This document shows, piece after piece, positions 1 to 8,885 of a stretch of DNA of 64,000 bases (the stretch's first letter is position 1; every line of letters starts with the position of its first letter). A program made the translations under genes and the position numbers. The stretch is from Colwellia sp. Its GTDB lineage: Bacteria; Pseudomonadota; Gammaproteobacteria; Enterobacterales; Alteromonadaceae. Under the pieces are notes generated by a model that was not told the DNA's origin, did not search any database, and saw nothing but the letters and a program-made list of their open reading frames with translations. The stretch covers positions 868,001 to 932,000 of the forward strand of contig NZ_JABSPA010000002.1 in NCBI RefSeq assembly GCF_013214175.1. The letters are read 5' to 3'.

Positions 1-1427
1 CTAACAAAGAGCACTTCATGCCACTTACGGCCGAGTCAGGCTTTCATGTTTGGATAGCAAGTATTTCCACGAAAGGTGATTTTAAAAAATTTGTCGATTA
101 CCAAGATTATTTAGCACGTCTAGCTGCCTTACCAAACTATTTTTTACAGCAAACTCACTGGATGAAAGAAGGGCTTAAACAAGGAATTAGCCAACCTAAA
201 ATAGTTCTTGAGGGCTTCGAGCAATCTATCTCGGCCTTTATTAAAGAAGATGTCACTAAGAGTGGCTACTATAAACCGTTTGATAAAATGTCTGCTTTTA
301 TTAGCTTAAGCCAGCAAAAAGAATTACAAAGACAAGCTAAGCATGTGTTAAGCACTAAAGTTATGCCCGCATATAAAGCTTATTATGACTTTATGGTTAA
401 TGAGTACCAACCTAATGCTCGAGATAATATTGCCGCTAGTTCACTGCCTAATGGCGACGCTTATTATCAAAACAGATTAGTACATTATACCACCTTGCCT
501 ATGACCGCAGTGCAAGTGCATCAACAAGGCCTTGTGGAAGTAAAGCGTATTCGTGGAGAAATGGAAGCTATTATTGAGCAAGTTGACTTTGATGGGGATT
601 TTGCTGAGTTTGTACAATTTCTACGTAGCGACCCTCAATTTTATGCAAGCACAGCAACTGAGCTATTAAAAGAGGCATCTTTTATTGCTAAAAAAATGGA
701 TGCTAAATTACCATCGCTCTTTAAAACACTACCAAGAACGCCTTATGGTGTTATGGCAGTGCCGGCTAATATTGCTCCCAAATACACTACTGGCAGATAT
801 GCAGGTTCATCTCGTGATGATCAGCCAGGTAATTACTGGGTAAATACTTATAGACTTGACCGACGACCACTTTATGTTTTAACAGCATTAACACTCCATG
901 AGGCTGTGCCAGGCCATCATTTACAAATATCTTTAGCAAAAGAAATGGTTGATGTGGCAAAGTTTCGCAATCGTACTTACATTTCAGCTTTCGGTGAAGG
1001 TTGGGGCTTGTACTCTGAATACCTTGGCATCGAGGCCGGCATGTATGAAGACCCTTATCATAACTTTGGTCGCTTAACTTATGAGATGTGGCGAGCATGC
1101 CGCTTAGTTGTTGATACGGGTATGCATACTCAAGGTTGGAGTAGAGCACAAGCGATTGATTTTTTGGCGAGTAATACTGCATTGTCACTACACAATGTGA
1201 CTACAGAAATAGATCGCTATATTTCTTGGCCTGGGCAAGCACTGTCATACAAAATGGGCGAATTAACGATTAAGCGCTTACGTAATGAGGCAGAACAAGC
1301 ATTAGGAAAAGACTTTGATTTAAGAGACTTTCATGATCAATTACTCAAGCACGGCTCTATGCCATTATCTATGATGGATAAAGTTGTTATGCAATATATC
1401 CATGAGCAGGCAATAGAAAATAAATAA
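1..1427 (+). CDS. DUF885 family metallopeptidase, 5' end outside the window
   Basis: This is the C-terminal part of a DUF885 protein, a family of putative zinc metallopeptidases usually near 600 residues. The frame is open to the window edge, with codons for N-K-E-H-F before the first ATG at 18, so that ATG is internal. The diagnostic HEAVPGHH motif (HExxH-like, putative zinc ligands and catalytic Glu) lies at about codon 293 counted from 18, and a GEGWGLYSE segment typical of the family follows near codon 327. The C-terminus is complete at a TAA stop. The usual signal peptide would lie outside the window, so location cannot be judged. The substrate is unknown; peptidase activity is inferred from the family. 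Confidence 0.85.
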   Translation, partial: NKEHFMPLTAESGFHVWIASISTKGDFKKFVDYQDYLARLAALPNYFLQQTHWMKEGLKQGISQPKIVLEGFEQSISAFIKEDVTKSGYYKPFDKMSAFISLSQQKELQRQAKHVLSTKVMPAYKAYYDFMVNEYQPNARDNIAASSLPNGDAYYQNRLVHYTTLPMTAVQVHQQGLVEVKRIRGEMEAIIEQVDFDGDFAEFVQFLRSDPQFYASTATELLKEASFIAKKMDAKLPSLFKTLPRTPYGVMAVPANIAPKYTTGRYAGSSRDDQPGNYWVNTYRLDRRPLYVLTALTLHEAVPGHHLQISLAKEMVDVAKFRNRTYISAFGEGWGLYSEYLGIEAGMYEDPYHNFGRLTYEMWRACRLVVDTGMHTQGWSRAQAIDFLASNTALSLHNVTTEIDRYISWPGQALSYKMGELTIKRLRNEAEQALGKDFDLRDFHDQLLKHGSMPLSMMDKVVMQYIHEQAIENK

Positions 1428-1666
1428 TCATGCAATAACTCTTATTTATCTCAGTGAATAGTCTGGTTTATCTTAGGTAGTATTAGGCTATTCGCTTTAT
1501 TTAATGAAGTAAATATTGATAGCACACAACGGCATTACAAGTTACTTGATTGAATAATAGCGATATAATCTTATTAAATAATTTGTACAGAGTGGATGAT
1601 GTGGCTGTTCCAGAAGGGATTTAAAGGAATAAGGGAGAGGGAGCACGCAAAGAAAACGGAAGAAAC

Positions 1667-1708
1667 AGATAGTGGATTATCGAATTAAGATAAGCCCCCA
1701 CTATATCT
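1667..1708 (-). terminator. Hairpin behind the c-di-GMP riboswitch, terminator-like
   Basis: On the minus strand the riboswitch is followed by an imperfect stem (TAGTGG with CCACTA, inner TTATC with GATAA, loop 1682-1688). A pyrimidine-rich tract with two short T runs comes next (1650-1666). The position suits the terminator arm of an expression platform, but the T tail is interrupted, so termination strength is uncertain. Confidence 0.45.
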
Positions 1709-1709
1709 A

Positions 1710-1796
1710 AACTTGGTAGTCCCGCTATCATAGGTTTCCCTTTAGACCGGTAACTTTGCGTCTCTAACTTTCATTAGATTTGCCCTTATCAAGCTG
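1710..1796 (-). promoter_or_regulatory. c-di-GMP-I (GEMM-I) riboswitch aptamer
   Basis: Read on the minus strand, the segment has the GEMM-I landmarks in order: GGGCAAA, a short hairpin with a GAAA tetraloop (TCTAA/TTAGA), the conserved GACGCAAAG, then CCGGTCTAAAGG, GAAA, CCTATGATAGCGG, and the closing GGGACTACC. The same order occurs in the Vibrio Vc2 aptamer. It would bind cyclic di-GMP in a leader transcript. Downstream on this strand (1428-1666) only peptides of 12-14 codons are open, and the DUF885 gene is then met in antisense. The rest of 1428-1906 contains no gene that I can see. Confidence 0.85.
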
Positions 1797-1906
1797 TAAA
1801 GCTCAATTTCATTATAGGTTGAATTTTATAAATGTAAACAGAAAAGGCTACTTTTGCTTCGCTTTATAGGTTAAAAGTAGTAATAAATACTATTGGATAA
1901 CTTTCA

Positions 1907-3850
1907 ATGGTTTGTTTTTCAATCACTAACGGTATGAATATGACTAGTGCGCGGTTATTTTCCTTCATAATATTTACTTTTAAACTGCTAACACTGTCTT
2001 TATTATTTGCAGTCAATACTTATGCTCAATCTTCTTCTGAGCAAATAATATTGACTAATCAAGTGCTGAAGCTATTAAAAGTCAATAGCGAGTCGCTCAA
2101 TGCTGATACGGTGAAACAGCTGTCAGCTAAAATTATTGATAACCGTCAACTTTTCTCCAATGATATTCTAGCCAAAGTTTTTTTACTCTCCGCTAATGTT
2201 GCTAGTAACCAAGCAAATATCAACCAGATTTATGACTTTGCTCAAAGTGGTTTATCGGTAAATAGCAGGGATAAAAAAATAAAACTATCGCTTTTGTTAA
2301 AGTTGGCGGAAGTTTATGTTGCGAGAAAGCAGTATCAACAGTTACTTATTTTGATTCAAACGGCAGTAAACAATAGTGAATACAGCCGTAATATCAAACA
2401 TCAATTACTTTTACTCAGTTATCGTAGTGTCGCTTTTGCCATGCTGGGAAAACATCAACAGGCTTTGTCGGATTTACAACAGGTTGAACGAGGCATTAGT
2501 AAAAGCGAATTGACCGAACATATTGAACTATTAACTATCTTGTCCATGGTCTATCACCATTTAGGTGATTATCAAACATCATTGACTATGCAGTTAAAAA
2601 TTTTGAAATTAAGGTTTGAAATGGGACAAGTGGCAAACCTTGATAAGACCTATTTATATTTGGGTTATGCGTATTTCTATTTGCAGCGTTTTGATGATGC
2701 TTACAATGCTTTTTGGCAGTCTAAAAAGCATGCTGATAATAAGCAAGCACCTATTAGTGCAGCCTACGCAAGTAAAGGGTTAGGCATTACATTACTTACT
2801 CAACAGCAGCTTCCTGCTGCTATTGAATCATTAGAGCAAGCAATCACTATATTTAAGCATAACGACATGCTTGATGAGCAAATTGAAACTATGGTCGCAC
2901 TGGTTAAGGCGAAGTTAGACCAGCAGCAAACTAGTGAGGGTTATACTTTATTAAATCAAGTTTTAGTGCTTTTAGATGGCAAAGATATTTCGTTGCAGTT
3001 TGCTGGTTTTTACCGCATGGTTGCAGAGATGCACCTTGCCCAAGACAATTATCCAAGTGCTTATCTCTGGCGGGAAAAACATAGTAAAGTGTTAATAACT
3101 AAACTGCATGATATGAAAAAATCTTTGACTCTAGGCTATGGATTATCTCATTTGAGCTCTGGTCCGAAAGCTATCGTTGAGCCTATTGAAGAGTCGAGAA
3201 AATTGGCAGTGAAATTAGCACAAAGTAGTGAGTTATCGAGTAGTTTTGTCGAAAAGTACCAAAAGCAACGTAGCATTATTATTAGTTTATCCGCGCTTGT
3301 TTGCTTATTGATTATGACCTTGCTGGGTTTTTTCCTGAGTTTAAGAGCACGGCGAATAAATTTAGCCTATGAAGAAATTGAAAAACCAAGTTATGCCATG
3401 GCTGGTCCTATGCAAACTAAATTTGATTATCAATTGGCTTTTAAAAAAGCACGTAAATTTCAATACCCTTTAAGCATTGCTTATTTAGTGGTAGAAAATT
3501 GGCAAGAGCTGGCTTTTCATTTTAATAATAAAAGAATTAATGAAGTCACTAAAGATATTTCCAGCTTAATCAATGGTCAATTAACAGCGTTTGATTACGC
3601 AGGTTTACTTAACCAGGGCGAGTATTTATTGATATTTGAGCATTTAAGTAGTGAGGAGGCGAAAATGAAAGTCGATAAGCTAGTACAAGCTTTAAATAGT
3701 CGAGCCTTTGCTAATTTAGGTAGCTTTTCAATTGCAATGAAATATTCAATAAGTACACCCGGATATAAAGATATTGATCCTTATCTATTTTTGGCACATA
3801 TAGCTGAATCTGTTAACATTAAGCAAGTTAATCAGTCTAGGGTACCTTAA
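1907..3850 (+). CDS. TPR protein with transmembrane segment and degenerate GGDEF domain
   Basis: The 647-residue product has an N-terminal signal sequence ending near AVNTYAQ, about 400 residues of helical TPR-like repeats that would be periplasmic, one membrane span at about residues 455-477, and a cytoplasmic GGDEF-like domain from about 497. The signature GGDEF loop reads NQGEYLLIF near residue 569, so diguanylate cyclase activity is not expected. This architecture suggests a sensor or scaffold rather than an enzyme. In-frame ATGs at 1934 and 1940 would give a more typical signal peptide length and may be the true start. The stop overlaps the next start in TAATG, implying translational coupling. 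The partner and signal are unknown. Confidence 0.8.
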   Translation: MVCFSITNGMNMTSARLFSFIIFTFKLLTLSLLFAVNTYAQSSSEQIILTNQVLKLLKVNSESLNADTVKQLSAKIIDNRQLFSNDILAKVFLLSANVASNQANINQIYDFAQSGLSVNSRDKKIKLSLLLKLAEVYVARKQYQQLLILIQTAVNNSEYSRNIKHQLLLLSYRSVAFAMLGKHQQALSDLQQVERGISKSELTEHIELLTILSMVYHHLGDYQTSLTMQLKILKLRFEMGQVANLDKTYLYLGYAYFYLQRFDDAYNAFWQSKKHADNKQAPISAAYASKGLGITLLTQQQLPAAIESLEQAITIFKHNDMLDEQIETMVALVKAKLDQQQTSEGYTLLNQVLVLLDGKDISLQFAGFYRMVAEMHLAQDNYPSAYLWREKHSKVLITKLHDMKKSLTLGYGLSHLSSGPKAIVEPIEESRKLAVKLAQSSELSSSFVEKYQKQRSIIISLSALVCLLIMTLLGFFLSLRARRINLAYEEIEKPSYAMAGPMQTKFDYQLAFKKARKFQYPLSIAYLVVENWQELAFHFNNKRINEVTKDISSLINGQLTAFDYAGLLNQGEYLLIFEHLSSEEAKMKVDKLVQALNSRAFANLGSFSIAMKYSISTPGYKDIDPYLFLAHIAESVNIKQVNQSRVP

Positions 3851-4383
3851 TGTTTTTTGTTTTAATTATAACGGCTATCTTTGTCGTGATTAGTATCTAT
3901 TTCTTCCTTCGCGCAGAGAAGCTACAGCGACAGCTAATAAGCCAAAAACGTGACAGTTTTACTACCCGTAAGGAAAATAAAGTATTAGCAGACTCAATGA
4001 CACTTTTTGCCACTCGTGGACAAGAATTTGCTCAAGCTAGATTAGCACGTTTAAAAGTGCAAGCTAAAGCAAGTGAAGATGAACATCTCATCATACACGT
4101 TGAGCTAATTAGCCCATTAATCAATAATTACAGTATTATTTTCAGAGAGTGCCTAAAAGGCAAAGGTCGCCTAAAAGTAGTAAGTAAAAAGTGTTTTGAA
4201 AACCATGATAATGCTGCATATAAGAAATTTGTTGCCTTAATAGTCACGGGTGATAAACAGCTGAAGCGTTATTGGTCTAGTGATAACTTAAATGGCTTTC
4301 TTTTTTTAGTTGATTCATTACTCACTATTGGAGACAGTACCAGTGTCTCGTCAAACATTAAAGAAAGTGTTTGTATCTCTTAA
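3850..4383 (+). CDS. Small membrane-anchored protein of unknown function
   Basis: I do not recognise a family. The 177-residue product begins with one hydrophobic segment (residues 1-20), followed by a basic, probably cytoplasmic coiled region (about 22-75) and a mixed alpha/beta C-terminal part with two cysteines (in ECLK and KKCF). Its ATG overlaps the stop of the TPR-GGDEF-like gene by one base, so the two are very likely translated together and may work together. A type III-like orientation with N-terminus out and body in is plausible. Nothing supports a catalytic role. A degenerate GGDEF-EAL gene follows 90 bp downstream. Confidence 0.7.
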   Translation: MFFVLIITAIFVVISIYFFLRAEKLQRQLISQKRDSFTTRKENKVLADSMTLFATRGQEFAQARLARLKVQAKASEDEHLIIHVELISPLINNYSIIFRECLKGKGRLKVVSKKCFENHDNAAYKKFVALIVTGDKQLKRYWSSDNLNGFLFLVDSLLTIGDSTSVSSNIKESVCIS

Positions 4384-4473: not shown

Positions 4474-6099
4474 GTGTTGTTAAATATGAGTCGTTTTAAC
4501 GCCAAGTACTTTTTTTTATTCACTATTTTTATCGTGATAGTTGCTCTGTCAGTACTATTTGCTCAGCTTTATAGCGAACAGTTACCTATTGGCTTAATTG
4601 CAACGGCCAGTTATGTTATTGCTATCATTATCGCCATTGCTCTGGCTTGGCTGCTTACCCAAAAACTCTTTGGTACAGAAAGTAGCACTGCTGGCAAAGA
4701 AACCATCAGTGTTGAAGAGCTTTTTACTTATACTCATGATCCAGTAACTAACTTACCTACCGCACAACAAGCTTTAAAGGCCTTCGAATCGGCAATCAAG
4801 TCAAGTACTGGGCAACGTTATGCCGCAGTGGTATTCAAACCTATAAATTTTCAACAAGTGAATAGCTTATTGGGCTATCACAATTCAGATATTTTATTAC
4901 TGCAACTTGCTTATTGTTTACAACAAAAAATAGTTAACAATAAGAAATTATTAACTTTTGGCGCTAGTCCAGAACCCGTTCGTATTGCACGTTTGCAAAG
5001 CTTACAGTTTTTGGTTGTTTATGATTTAACTGATAGCCGCTTCGATGATCAAAGTATGTTGAATGAGTTGTGCCAACAACTAGGCAAAGCCGTTCCTGAT
5101 GCTATGAGCTTTAAAAGTTATTCTTTAAACTTTGAACTCGCTTTTGGCATCGCAATATCAGGAGAGCATGGCAATACTGTTGAAGAGGTTATTGCCCATG
5201 CGGGTGATGCCTTACTCAATGGATTAAAATCTCAGCAAGTCATTAGCTATTTTGATAATAGCAGTATCCTATATACACAAAGCCAGTTAGCGCGGATGGA
5301 AGCATTTCGTCAAGACATTCACGATGAAAAGCTACATTGCTATTTAAAGCCGCAAGTAAATATAAAGAATTACAATATTGTCGGCTTTCAATTAAAAGTT
5401 CATTGGTATGAGAAGAGTGCCCGTAAACCACTTGAGTTATCCGAGTTTTCAGAGCTTGCAGAGCAAAGTGGTGAACTATATTGCTTAACAAGATATATGT
5501 TTGAGCAAGCCTTTACCACCCTTGAGACTTTACACCGTATCGGTGTATATCAACGTATTTCCGTGAGTTTAGCCAGTGAAAACTTGTTTGAAGTGGACTT
5601 GGTTGACTTCATTGAGGAAAAGTTACAACAGCATGGTATCGCAGGTAAATATTTAATGATTGAGCTAAATGAACAAGTCATGCTCAATGCAAGTCAACGG
5701 GTAAAAAGCATCATAGATCAACTGAAGTCATTAGATATAAGTATCTCCATTGCGAACTTTTCTGGCAGTTATGAATCACTACGTTATGTGCGTAAAATGG
5801 CCATACATCAATTGAAAGTGAACTGTCAGCAATTATCAAATGATAGTAGTAATCGAGTAGATAAGGCGATCACCAATGCGCTAGTTACCTTAACACGCAG
5901 TATGAAAATCCCACTTATTGGTACTAACATTGACAGGCATGATGCATCACAAGCCTATATTGCCATGGGAGGTGAATTAATTCAGGGGGATATTATTCAC
6001 TCAGGTGTGGTACCTGATGAAATAGAAATTTGGTTAGAAAAGTGGTATTTACAGCACCCAGGCTCAATCCCTCCAGAAGCAAGGCCGTCTATTTATTAA
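4474..6099 (+). CDS. Membrane protein with degenerate GGDEF and EAL domains, CsrD-like in architecture
   Basis: Two N-terminal membrane spans (about 12-30 and 38-63) precede a GGDEF-like domain (about 85-260) and an EAL-like domain (about 275-530). The GGDEF loop is replaced by LQSLQFLVVYD. The EAL triplet reads FQLKV near residue 305, and the DDFGTGYSS metal-binding motif reads ANFSGSYES near residue 427, so neither cyclase nor phosphodiesterase activity is expected. The layout recalls CsrD/MshH, which lost both activities and acts in CsrB RNA turnover, but orthology is not shown. The start is uncertain: GTG at 4474, TTG at 4477 and ATG at 4486 share one poorly spaced AGGA. A shared hairpin terminator follows. 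Confidence 0.75.
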   Translation: MLLNMSRFNAKYFFLFTIFIVIVALSVLFAQLYSEQLPIGLIATASYVIAIIIAIALAWLLTQKLFGTESSTAGKETISVEELFTYTHDPVTNLPTAQQALKAFESAIKSSTGQRYAAVVFKPINFQQVNSLLGYHNSDILLLQLAYCLQQKIVNNKKLLTFGASPEPVRIARLQSLQFLVVYDLTDSRFDDQSMLNELCQQLGKAVPDAMSFKSYSLNFELAFGIAISGEHGNTVEEVIAHAGDALLNGLKSQQVISYFDNSSILYTQSQLARMEAFRQDIHDEKLHCYLKPQVNIKNYNIVGFQLKVHWYEKSARKPLELSEFSELAEQSGELYCLTRYMFEQAFTTLETLHRIGVYQRISVSLASENLFEVDLVDFIEEKLQQHGIAGKYLMIELNEQVMLNASQRVKSIIDQLKSLDISISIANFSGSYESLRYVRKMAIHQLKVNCQQLSNDSSNRVDKAITNALVTLTRSMKIPLIGTNIDRHDASQAYIAMGGELIQGDIIHSGVVPDEIEIWLEKWYLQHPGSIPPEARPSIY

Positions 6100-6860: not shown

Positions 6861-8885
6861 ATGATCGAATATATTACCCCACGGACTTTTTTATTTGCGA
6901 CACAAGCCGTAGTTTTTTCGGTATTGTTATTTGTCTTTATTGTTTACTATCGCACCTTCTTTCGTAAATATGTGCTGTACTGGTTAGTCAGTATCGGCAT
7001 GTTAAGTTTTAGCTACCTTATTAAAGCTTTACTCCCCTATACCAGCGCGAATTTGGCCAATAGCAATTGGTACTATATCGCTGAATTTATTCTACAAACT
7101 TGTCAGTATGCTTTTTTATTGTTTCTTTTACTTGGCGTGTACAATGCTAAAACAAATAAAGTAATCCCCAAGAAAGTATCAATAGGCGGATTGGCTTTAA
7201 CTATAGCCGTCAGTTTAACCACAACAATGCTCTTCGCCTTTGAGCCCAGCCAAGCTTTCAATCATTTTTATTTAACCATTAGCCTACCTAGTTTTATTTT
7301 GGGGTGCAGTTTTCTCGCTTTAGCAACTTACCTTTTATTTGATAAAAAGAATTATTTCTCTAGCCAAGTATTAATGTATTTTTCTGCGGTTATTGGTTTT
7401 CGGTATTTGATTCACTCTTTCATTTCTATTGTGGCTTTAACAGAGCCTTGGTTTCGCCAGCTAGAGTTGTTTTTATTATATTTTGATGTTTCTGCACATA
7501 GTATTCTAGGTTTTACTTTACTCATTTGGATGCAAGGAGCTGAGCGGTTTGCCGCTATAAATGCCATTAACAGAGCGCAATATCTAGGTAAACATGACTC
7601 GTTAACGGGAGCACTTAATCGTGGGCAAGTCATGGCTAAGTTATCGGATAAAATAGATGAATTAAAGCAAGTAAATAAAAACAGCAAAAGTCAGTTAAAA
7701 CTGTCGGTTTTCTTAATCGATATAAAGCAATTTAAGTTTGTTAACGATACCTACGGCTTAAAAATAGGTGATTATATTCTAGGAGAAATTGCCAGCAGAC
7801 TGAACCACAGTGTTTTTATGCCTCAGGCTGTAGGACGCTTAAGTGGTGATTCATTTATGTTTGTAATCGAATTCGAGCAGGCTTCTCATGTCGATAGAGC
7901 GGTAAGTCATATCCACGAACTTATTCAACGTACCTTTCATTATGAGCAGCAAGAGATAACTATTCAAGGAAGTGTCGGCTACTGTTTTTACCCGGATGAT
8001 GCCGAAAAATCTGAGGATCTTTTACAAAAAGCTAATCTTGCTTTACATCATGCTGAAACTAACAATATTGCCTCTGTCGCTTTTGAAGAAGGCATGCAGG
8101 CACAGGGACGACATTTACTGTTAATGGAAAAACAGTTAAGAGCAGCATTAGCAAATGATGAATTCATTTTATATTTCCAGCCACAATTAAACTTACTAAC
8201 CAATAAGCTCGAAGGTGTCGAAGCATTAGTTCGTTGGCAACACCCAGAAAAAGGTTTGCTTGCTCCAAGTGAGTTCTTGGATGAAGTAGAAGCTTTGGGT
8301 ATGCACAGTGTGTTTGATAATTACATTCTAGCCAAGGCTTGCCAAACAAGTGAACGCTGGTTCAAATTATACCAACGCCGTGTTGCCATTGCGGTAAACA
8401 TAACTGCGGTTGAGTTTCAAGATGAGCGCCTAGTTACTAATATTCAAAACTTATTACATAAATATAATTTGCCTCCTAAATATATTGAATTAGAAATCAC
8501 TGAAAATGTGGTTATGACAGACATAACCCGAGCAATGGACAGTATTGTTAAATTACAAAGTATGGGTATTAAAGTTTCAATTGATGACTTTGGTACAGGT
8601 TACTCCTCTTTAGCTTATTTACGCGAGTTACCTATAGATAAAATAAAGATTGATCGTAGCTTTATTCGCGAAGTGGCCAGTAATGACTCCGATCTAACTA
8701 TAGTTAAATCTATGATAGATCTTTCCCATGGCCTAGGTAAACGTGTCTTAGCGGAGGGTGTTGAAACGGTTGAACAACTTAATGCTTTACGCCATTTAGG
8801 TTGTGATGCGGTGCAAGGTTACTTTATTGACAAGCCCTTACCTGAAGAAGAATTAGTACGTTACCTGAAAAGAAAAAAATCCTAA
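6861..8885 (+). CDS. Membrane GGDEF-EAL protein with intact EAL domain, probable c-di-GMP phosphodiesterase
   Basis: The 674-residue product starts with about seven hydrophobic segments (residues 8-225), a MASE-like membrane sensor. A GGDEF domain follows (about 240-400) whose loop reads SGDSF near residue 327, so cyclase activity is doubtful. The EAL domain (about 420-670) keeps EGVEALVRW, the ITEN Glu, DDFGTGYSSL near 574, KIDRSF and AEGVET, which are the metal and catalytic residues of active phosphodiesterases. The inferred role is to hydrolyse c-di-GMP at the inner membrane, possibly with the GGDEF domain as a GTP-sensing regulatory part. It is transcribed alone, divergent from rraA with a 212-bp gap. 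Confidence 0.85.
   Translation: MIEYITPRTFLFATQAVVFSVLLFVFIVYYRTFFRKYVLYWLVSIGMLSFSYLIKALLPYTSANLANSNWYYIAEFILQTCQYAFLLFLLLGVYNAKTNKVIPKKVSIGGLALTIAVSLTTTMLFAFEPSQAFNHFYLTISLPSFILGCSFLALATYLLFDKKNYFSSQVLMYFSAVIGFRYLIHSFISIVALTEPWFRQLELFLLYFDVSAHSILGFTLLIWMQGAERFAAINAINRAQYLGKHDSLTGALNRGQVMAKLSDKIDELKQVNKNSKSQLKLSVFLIDIKQFKFVNDTYGLKIGDYILGEIASRLNHSVFMPQAVGRLSGDSFMFVIEFEQASHVDRAVSHIHELIQRTFHYEQQEITIQGSVGYCFYPDDAEKSEDLLQKANLALHHAETNNIASVAFEEGMQAQGRHLLLMEKQLRAALANDEFILYFQPQLNLLTNKLEGVEALVRWQHPEKGLLAPSEFLDEVEALGMHSVFDNYILAKACQTSERWFKLYQRRVAIAVNITAVEFQDERLVTNIQNLLHKYNLPPKYIELEITENVVMTDITRAMDSIVKLQSMGIKVSIDDFGTGYSSLAYLRELPIDKIKIDRSFIREVASNDSDLTIVKSMIDLSHGLGKRVLAEGVETVEQLNALRHLGCDAVQGYFIDKPLPEEELVRYLKRKKS

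Follow-up and report, generated by a model that had tools for sequence, protein, structure and literature searches.

The minus strand of the window, by which we mean the whole analysed stretch of 64,000 nucleotides of Colwellia sp. DNA, carries a conserved unit that we consider, with moderate confidence, to be an independently transcribed non-coding RNA of about 165-185 nt that responds to c-di-GMP, has the RNA itself as its output and probably acts in trans. Sequence comparison supports a design with its own promoter, a 5' hairpin, a c-di-GMP-I (GEMM-I) aptamer, a hairpin with a GGGG loop and an anti-aptamer, which is strongly conserved, also in related marine bacteria, and independent of any neighbour. 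Riboswitches are usually read as leaders of the next gene. The RNA described here is a single-copy element in at least 18 genera and has outlived each neighbour, which makes it directly testable whether an aptamer can do the sensing for a regulatory or buffering RNA that stands alone.

A c-di-GMP-I aptamer without a gene behind it

The GEMM-I aptamer that the original prediction placed on the minus strand was borne out by the Rfam covariance model. RF01051 (c-di-GMP-I) matched positions 1794-1712 of the minus strand at 78.0 bits (E 1.3e-13; gathering score 35) over all 87 model positions (1-87), a full-length match that includes the GAAA tetraloop and the core ACGCAAAG (1761-1754). By model score the aptamer is an ordinary member of RF01051; what differs from the known riboswitch is the conserved non-coding 3' module that follows it, with no gene behind. 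The expected lack of a protein gene after the aptamer was likewise confirmed, as the longest minus-strand frames from the aptamer to 1427, where the convergent DUF885 gene stops, are of 36 aa (1731-1621) and 34 aa (1646-1542).

Matches to c-di-GMP-I were found in 38 of the 39 genomes of the genus (90 in total; G034 is without any). Of the 52 GEMM-I copies elsewhere in the genus 13 were read, and all of these precede a same-strand frame of at least 60 aa that lies 56-306 nt past the aptamer, whereas the window aptamer is not placed ahead of a same-strand gene. The genome of the window has one further c-di-GMP-I element (C13:644710-644812), which is followed by a 119-aa frame 59 nt past the aptamer.

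The 36-aa and 34-aa frames would be the candidates if the aptamer were the leader of a tiny peptide, an earlier suggestion that we now regard as scarcely credible. Linker lengths differ by amounts that shift the frame, and 48 of 86 sequences have a stop within the first 15 codons of the GTG frame, to which the 36-aa frame belongs. The peptide was rejected because the 36-aa frame is not conserved. The 34-aa frame lies in sequence that is not alignable between species.

Anatomy of the conserved unit

Read along the minus strand, the unit consists of the promoter, the 5' hairpin, the aptamer, the GGGG-loop hairpin, a CUUUGC(G) segment and a pyrimidine-rich tail. We compared its parts by mean pairwise identity in an alignment of 36 genus copies, namely those flanked by one or both of the genes that neighbour the RNA in the window. 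The putative sigma-70-type promoter (1811..1838) contains TTTACA (1838-1833) and TATAAT (1816-1811) separated by a 16-nt spacer and agrees with the consensus at 11 of 12 positions. A scan of 1300-2000 returned 1 promoter-like site against a mean of 3.1 in shuffles, and since the number of sites is not above that in shuffles, the consensus match alone proves nothing; the evidence for the promoter is its conservation. The -35 block is 96.7% and the -10 block 100% identical, and the spacer between them 48.4%. Of the 53 named loci that show this region, 50 have an exact TTTACA-N15-19-TATAAT no more than 170 nt ahead of the GGGG block.

The 5' hairpin (P0, UUGAGCU...AGCUUGA; 1789..1806) would lie at or next to the start of the RNA and is 74.6% identical, and the aptamer (1712..1794) reaches 91.9%. 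The second hairpin, AGAUA-U-AGU-GGGG-GCU-UAUCU (1688..1708, with the GGGG loop at 1699-1696), is 91.7% identical, and its UAGUGGGGGCU is the same in all 36 aligned copies, which had been collected without using UAGUGGGGGCU. Both hairpins were further examined in an alignment of 41 sequences. In the 5' hairpin (helix 1), 88.0% of the cells are paired and both sides have changed at 3 of 7 pairs, and in the GGGG-loop hairpin (helix 2) the values are 97.3% and 3 of 8 pairs. For the two together, 93.0% of 611 cells are paired, falling to 26-45% when the partners were slid out of register. Changes on both sides were found at 6 of 15 pairs, a number equalled in 14 of 500 shuffles, and the covariation score was reached by 0 of 500; further pair types were not above the shuffles (225/500).

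A variable linker (1653..1687, 66.9% identity) follows, and the distance from GGGGGCU to CUUUGC varies from 31 to 49 nt among 86 distinct sequences. It leads to the anti-core CUUUGCGUG (1644..1652), which is complementary to the aptamer core and is 96.5% identical, with CUUUGCG in 35 of the 36 genus copies and UUUUGCG in the remaining one (L008). The next 20 nt form the pyrimidine-rich tail (1624..1643), with 50.2% identity. Across the 86 distinct sequences, the 20 nt past CTTTGC are 79% pyrimidine and 6% A, and C exceeds G in 82. Identity beyond the tail is 31.9%, and the RNA probably ends at about the tail or just beyond it. The interval 1428..1797 given in the original prediction holds conserved RNA down to near 1625, and its remainder down to 1428 is not conserved.

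Neighbouring genes of the RNA

In the window, the RNA lies between the 3' part of the convergent DUF885 gene (3..1427, plus strand; PF05960, E 7.4e-158) and a divergent TPR gene (1907..3850, plus strand; Pfam TPR_12), both of which are usual and not constant neighbours. The common order along the RNA strand is the divergent TPR gene, the RNA, the convergent DUF885 gene and a same-strand GGDEF gene, and the gene after the GGDEF gene in this arrangement is presumably DUF523. To the other side of the RNA, the window encodes two GGDEF-EAL proteins, at 4474-6096 and 6861-8882. Both match GGDEF and EAL in Pfam, in keeping with one part of the earlier description of a run of degenerate c-di-GMP proteins; the adjacent TPR protein (1907-3847) has no Pfam GGDEF match and 3850-4380 no Pfam match, which leaves that description partly supported. 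In the protein at 6861-8882, SGDSF replaces GGDEF and the EAL motif looks intact.

We evaluated the 48 loci in which the sequence extends 2400 nt or more downstream and 900 nt or more upstream. Neighbours were called by tblastn at E 1e-8 with identity above 25% for TPR, 55% for DUF885 and 40% for the GGDEF gene, limits at which distant homologues may be missed. Seven combinations were observed, and no neighbour is common to all loci: TPR with DUF885 and GGDEF (18), TPR with GGDEF (10), TPR with DUF885 (9), DUF885 only (8), and one locus each with DUF885 and GGDEF, with TPR only and with none. Of the 48, 12 lack DUF885 next to the RNA, 46 have DUF885 or the GGDEF gene downstream, and two have neither. 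Where DUF885 is present, its match ends 71-547 nt past the start of the GGGG block, and in the 13 loci with the GGDEF gene and no DUF885, the GGDEF match begins 182-413 nt past that point; L156 is not part of these distances because its CTTTTGCG did not fit the motif used.

Of the 39 genus genomes, 17 carry the GGDEF gene near the RNA. G001, G002, G004, G017 and G027 have no DUF885 next to the RNA, and in two further genomes the gene seems to be broken, split into two pieces in different frames in G007 and reduced to a 187-residue remnant in G009; neither DUF885 nor the GGDEF gene was found in G004 and G027. The divergent side changes as well. In seven loci of a deeper genus (L139, L141, L144, L145, L147, L149 and L150), another gene, which we take to be an acyl-CoA thioesterase (TesB), replaces the TPR gene and the design of the RNA is unchanged. 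By parsimony, a tree of 45 TPR proteins requires the DUF885 label to change 6 times or more, with well supported branches forcing only 2 of these changes, and because the deep part of this tree is poorly resolved, we claim no number of independent DUF885 losses.

Conservation of the RNA itself

The conserved unit was found in 38 of 39 genus genomes, comprising the 36 aligned copies, one copy in G022 (159.6 bits with model R1) and one in G017 (209.6 bits; L003 and L095 are one place). In G017 none of the three neighbours is beside the RNA, and its score is the highest among the 16 sources tested. The loci of G004 (L019) and G027 (L026), both lacking DUF885 and the GGDEF gene, share an RNA that is 92.9% identical between flanks of 120 nt that are 37.9% and 29.1% identical. 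Because the RNA is kept and the flanks have diverged in these two loci that lack both downstream genes, selection appears to act on the RNA itself. The G022 copy (L049, 1483-1671) does not fit this pattern. It looks partly decayed, with an altered GGCAAA that escaped the motif search and left it outside the 36-row alignment, a changed -35 block and an RF01051 score of 55.8 bits, in a genome that has both downstream genes, DUF885 and the GGDEF gene.

These comparisons also bear on whether the element is the relic of a riboswitch whose gene was lost, a possibility raised in the original prediction, which proposed that other Colwellia loci be compared for such a gene. The comparison did bring up a candidate, since relatives carry the same-strand GGDEF gene beyond or directly after the RNA and a search of the window's genome at E 1e-30 did not find it. 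The partly decayed copy of G022 would agree with a relic as well, though the GGDEF gene is present in that genome. However, the convergent DUF885 gene intervenes between the RNA and the GGDEF gene in 19 of the 29 evaluable loci that carry the latter. Identity among the 36 copies is 92-100% for the -35 and -10 blocks, aptamer, GGGG hairpin and anti-core and 32% past the tail, and the promoter, aptamer and 3' module are equally well kept where the downstream genes are absent, including species without the GGDEF gene. We rejected the relic because the conservation is too high, and consider it very improbable. The alternative raised alongside it, an orphan riboswitch leading a non-coding RNA, is supported.

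Predicted alternative folds and a possible termination switch

The CUUUGCG of the 3' segment is complementary to the aptamer core, and computed folds make it likely that the RNA has two mutually exclusive folds, because the 3' module out-pairs the shuffled mean in every sequence. With shuffling confined to the linker, anti-core and tail, each of the 43 non-redundant sequences gained more pairing with the aptamer than the average of its 30 shuffles, and for 37 the margin exceeded 2 sd (z below -2). In these computed folds, the 3' module competes with the aptamer as an expression platform does. Core and anti-core are paired in the minimum-energy fold of 41 of the 43. Since the 43 sequences were chosen by motifs including CUUUGC (3 of 46 were dropped, their aptamer start not being recognisable), the pairing of the CUUUGC segment is partly due to this selection.

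A duplex test of the whole 3' module gave a weaker result than the shuffle-fold test (mean z -1.05; 8 of 43 below -2). When partners were permuted among 41 sequences, 1880 of 5000 permutations were as good for core and anti-core, which does not separate own from foreign partners and is uninformative because the two segments are nearly invariant. The 5' and 3' ends pair better with their own partner (6/5000 permutations), relatedness not being controlled in this comparison. RNAalifold on the 36-sequence alignment returned a mixed structure that combines parts of both states, and the two states were therefore tested apart.

A pair of exclusive folds ahead of a tail rich in C and poor in G would also be expected of a cis-acting device of antisense type, in which aptamer and anti-aptamer form a termination switch, perhaps Rho-dependent, that gates read-through against the 3' end of DUF885 or, at loci that lack DUF885, into the GGDEF gene. 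We take this as the main rival of a free-standing RNA and judge it unlikely. An inherited cis role is conceivable, given that all but two of the 48 evaluable loci have DUF885 or the GGDEF gene downstream, at the distances given above. The element also resembles antisense riboswitches such as B12 AspocR in being convergent with the 3' end of a gene, here DUF885 (PMC9943018 and PMC8079631), and the aptamer end at 1712 and the DUF885 stop at 1427 are within the 500 nt used to define such cases. A 2023 survey reports the strongest antisense tendency for c-di-GMP riboswitches and gives as an example a Colwellia gene of unknown function (PMC9943018); this example, A3Q33_07785 of Colwellia sp. PAMC 21821, may be the present locus.

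Unlike a gene served by an antisense riboswitch, however, DUF885 is not a constant partner. Its absence in 12 of the 48 loci, together with the persistence of an intact RNA where DUF885 is broken (G007 and G009) or where neither gene was found (G004 and G027), also weakens the original suggestion of an antisense RNA over DUF885. No intrinsic terminator was found in window positions 1300-2000, and the sequence between the tail and DUF885 is not conserved. A Rho site would be possible by the composition of the tail only.

Possible function and comparison with known RNAs

On the evidence of its sequence, the RNA has its own promoter, is non-coding and is independent of its neighbours, as a trans-acting sRNA would be. 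Without ligand, the CUUUGC(G) segment, linker and tail would fold back on the aptamer to form a long closed rod. With c-di-GMP, the aptamer would form first and hold, and the 3' segment and the pyrimidine-rich tail would be left free. The output would then be the RNA itself and not the switching of a gene placed behind it, and the freed 3' segment, or an altered stability of the RNA, may act in trans on other RNAs or on protein. In its most specific form, which we put forward tentatively, the proposal is that c-di-GMP directly gates a trans-acting small RNA, its binding freeing the 3' anti-aptamer and tail for distant targets with no attached gene. When 13 genomes were searched with the invariant 11-mer of the GGGG hairpin, the window's genome showed no perfect complement besides the one at the RNA itself, and hence no obvious target. 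Additional complements of the 11-mer were seen as single sites in G033 and G037 and as two sites in G229.

One c-di-GMP precedent, the merRNA of Bdellovibrio bacteriovorus, was found among the matches listed in the open-access literature. It is described as a non-coding c-di-GMP riboswitch RNA with no conserved ORF, and a store of c-di-GMP has been proposed as its role (PMC3627812). It is 445 nt long and its abundance was measured, and the authors of that work saw no sign that merRNA is conserved beyond the Bdellovibrio lineage (PMC3627812). The Colwellia RNA, known here from its sequence and compared with merRNA by description, is shorter (about 165-185 nt), family-wide and equipped with an anti-aptamer.

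By analogy with merRNA, the Colwellia RNA could be an abundant reservoir or sink whose aptamers buffer free c-di-GMP. It too is a GEMM-I RNA without a conserved ORF, and the lack of a gene behind it, the conserved near-consensus promoter and the conserved 5' hairpin would all suit such a role. A pure sink, however, leaves the conserved anti-core and GGGG hairpin unexplained, and we rank the reservoir as the second rival and consider it rather improbable, below the termination switch. A riboswitch on a non-coding RNA has a further parallel. In Rli55 of Listeria, a riboswitch governs a non-coding RNA instead of a protein gene, senses vitamin B12, shortens the RNA on ligand binding and is joined to a binding site for EutV (PMC8079631). 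The Colwellia RNA is likened to Rli55 by the design of a riboswitch on a non-coding RNA alone. The Csr sRNAs of Pseudoalteromonas (PMC11882849) are unrelated to the Colwellia RNA. Among the matches listed in the open-access literature, we found no description of this RNA, its ligand binding or its expression.

Distribution beyond the genus

A search with an exact pattern of the 3' module alone, TAGTGGGGGCT-N27-55-CTTTGCGTG, returned 55 stretches from a collection of 84,980 species' genomes. The aptamer signature lies directly upstream of the 3' module in 53 of them; the other two (L072 and L086) are cut by the end of the locus, and L086 still shows the core. The stretches come from Colwellia, Cognaticolwellia, Litorilituus, Thalassotalea, unclassified Alteromonadaceae and Gammaproteobacteria, and one genome labelled Endozoicomonas, and the cultured species with the RNA include Colwellia polaris, C. 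chukchiensis, C. echini, Litorilituus lipolyticus and Thalassotalea marina.

From 41 sequences, with the two cut stretches left out, we then built a covariance model for the whole unit. It scored 114-207 bits in 63 of 196 genomes of the family, some of whose matches resemble sequences used to build the model, once per genome and in 18 of 52 genera among the matches listed. In the family sample, the next score below 114 bits is 89 bits. Twenty loci, mostly deeper or lower-scoring, were fetched for inspection. The locus at 88.8 bits (L151 of G060) retains TAGTGGGGGCT and CTTTGC, and the 3' module is absent from the loci at 80.1 bits (L152) and at 90.0 bits (L153, from another family). In a sample of the order of 394 genomes, including the family, none outside the family scored above 90.0 bits. 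The anti-core varies in the deeper loci, with CTTTTGCG in L156 and CTTTGC without the following G in L140, L142, L143, L146 and L148.

In the window, GGCAAA is preceded by a G, which we take to be G20 of the GEMM-I aptamer. This base is A, not G, in L058, L062, L094, L140, L142, L143, L146 and L148, and also in the seven loci named above in which another divergent gene replaces the TPR gene. If that base is position 20, as we presume from the numbering, the ligand preference could differ in the relatives bearing A. PMC6274999 cites a crystal structure in which a class I aptamer with the G20A change is combined with 3',3'-cGAMP.

Second c-di-GMP-I elements of several genus genomes were also observed in L007, L040, L044 and L047, ahead of related proteins that start with MHSQLSL or similar and are at least 411-474 aa long, their frames being truncated where the locus ends. 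In L047, a short insert with the ends GGCTCTGTTGTAG...CTACAACAGAGCC, like a miniature mobile element, lies about 80-260 nt past the aptamer, between the c-di-GMP-I riboswitch and the next gene.
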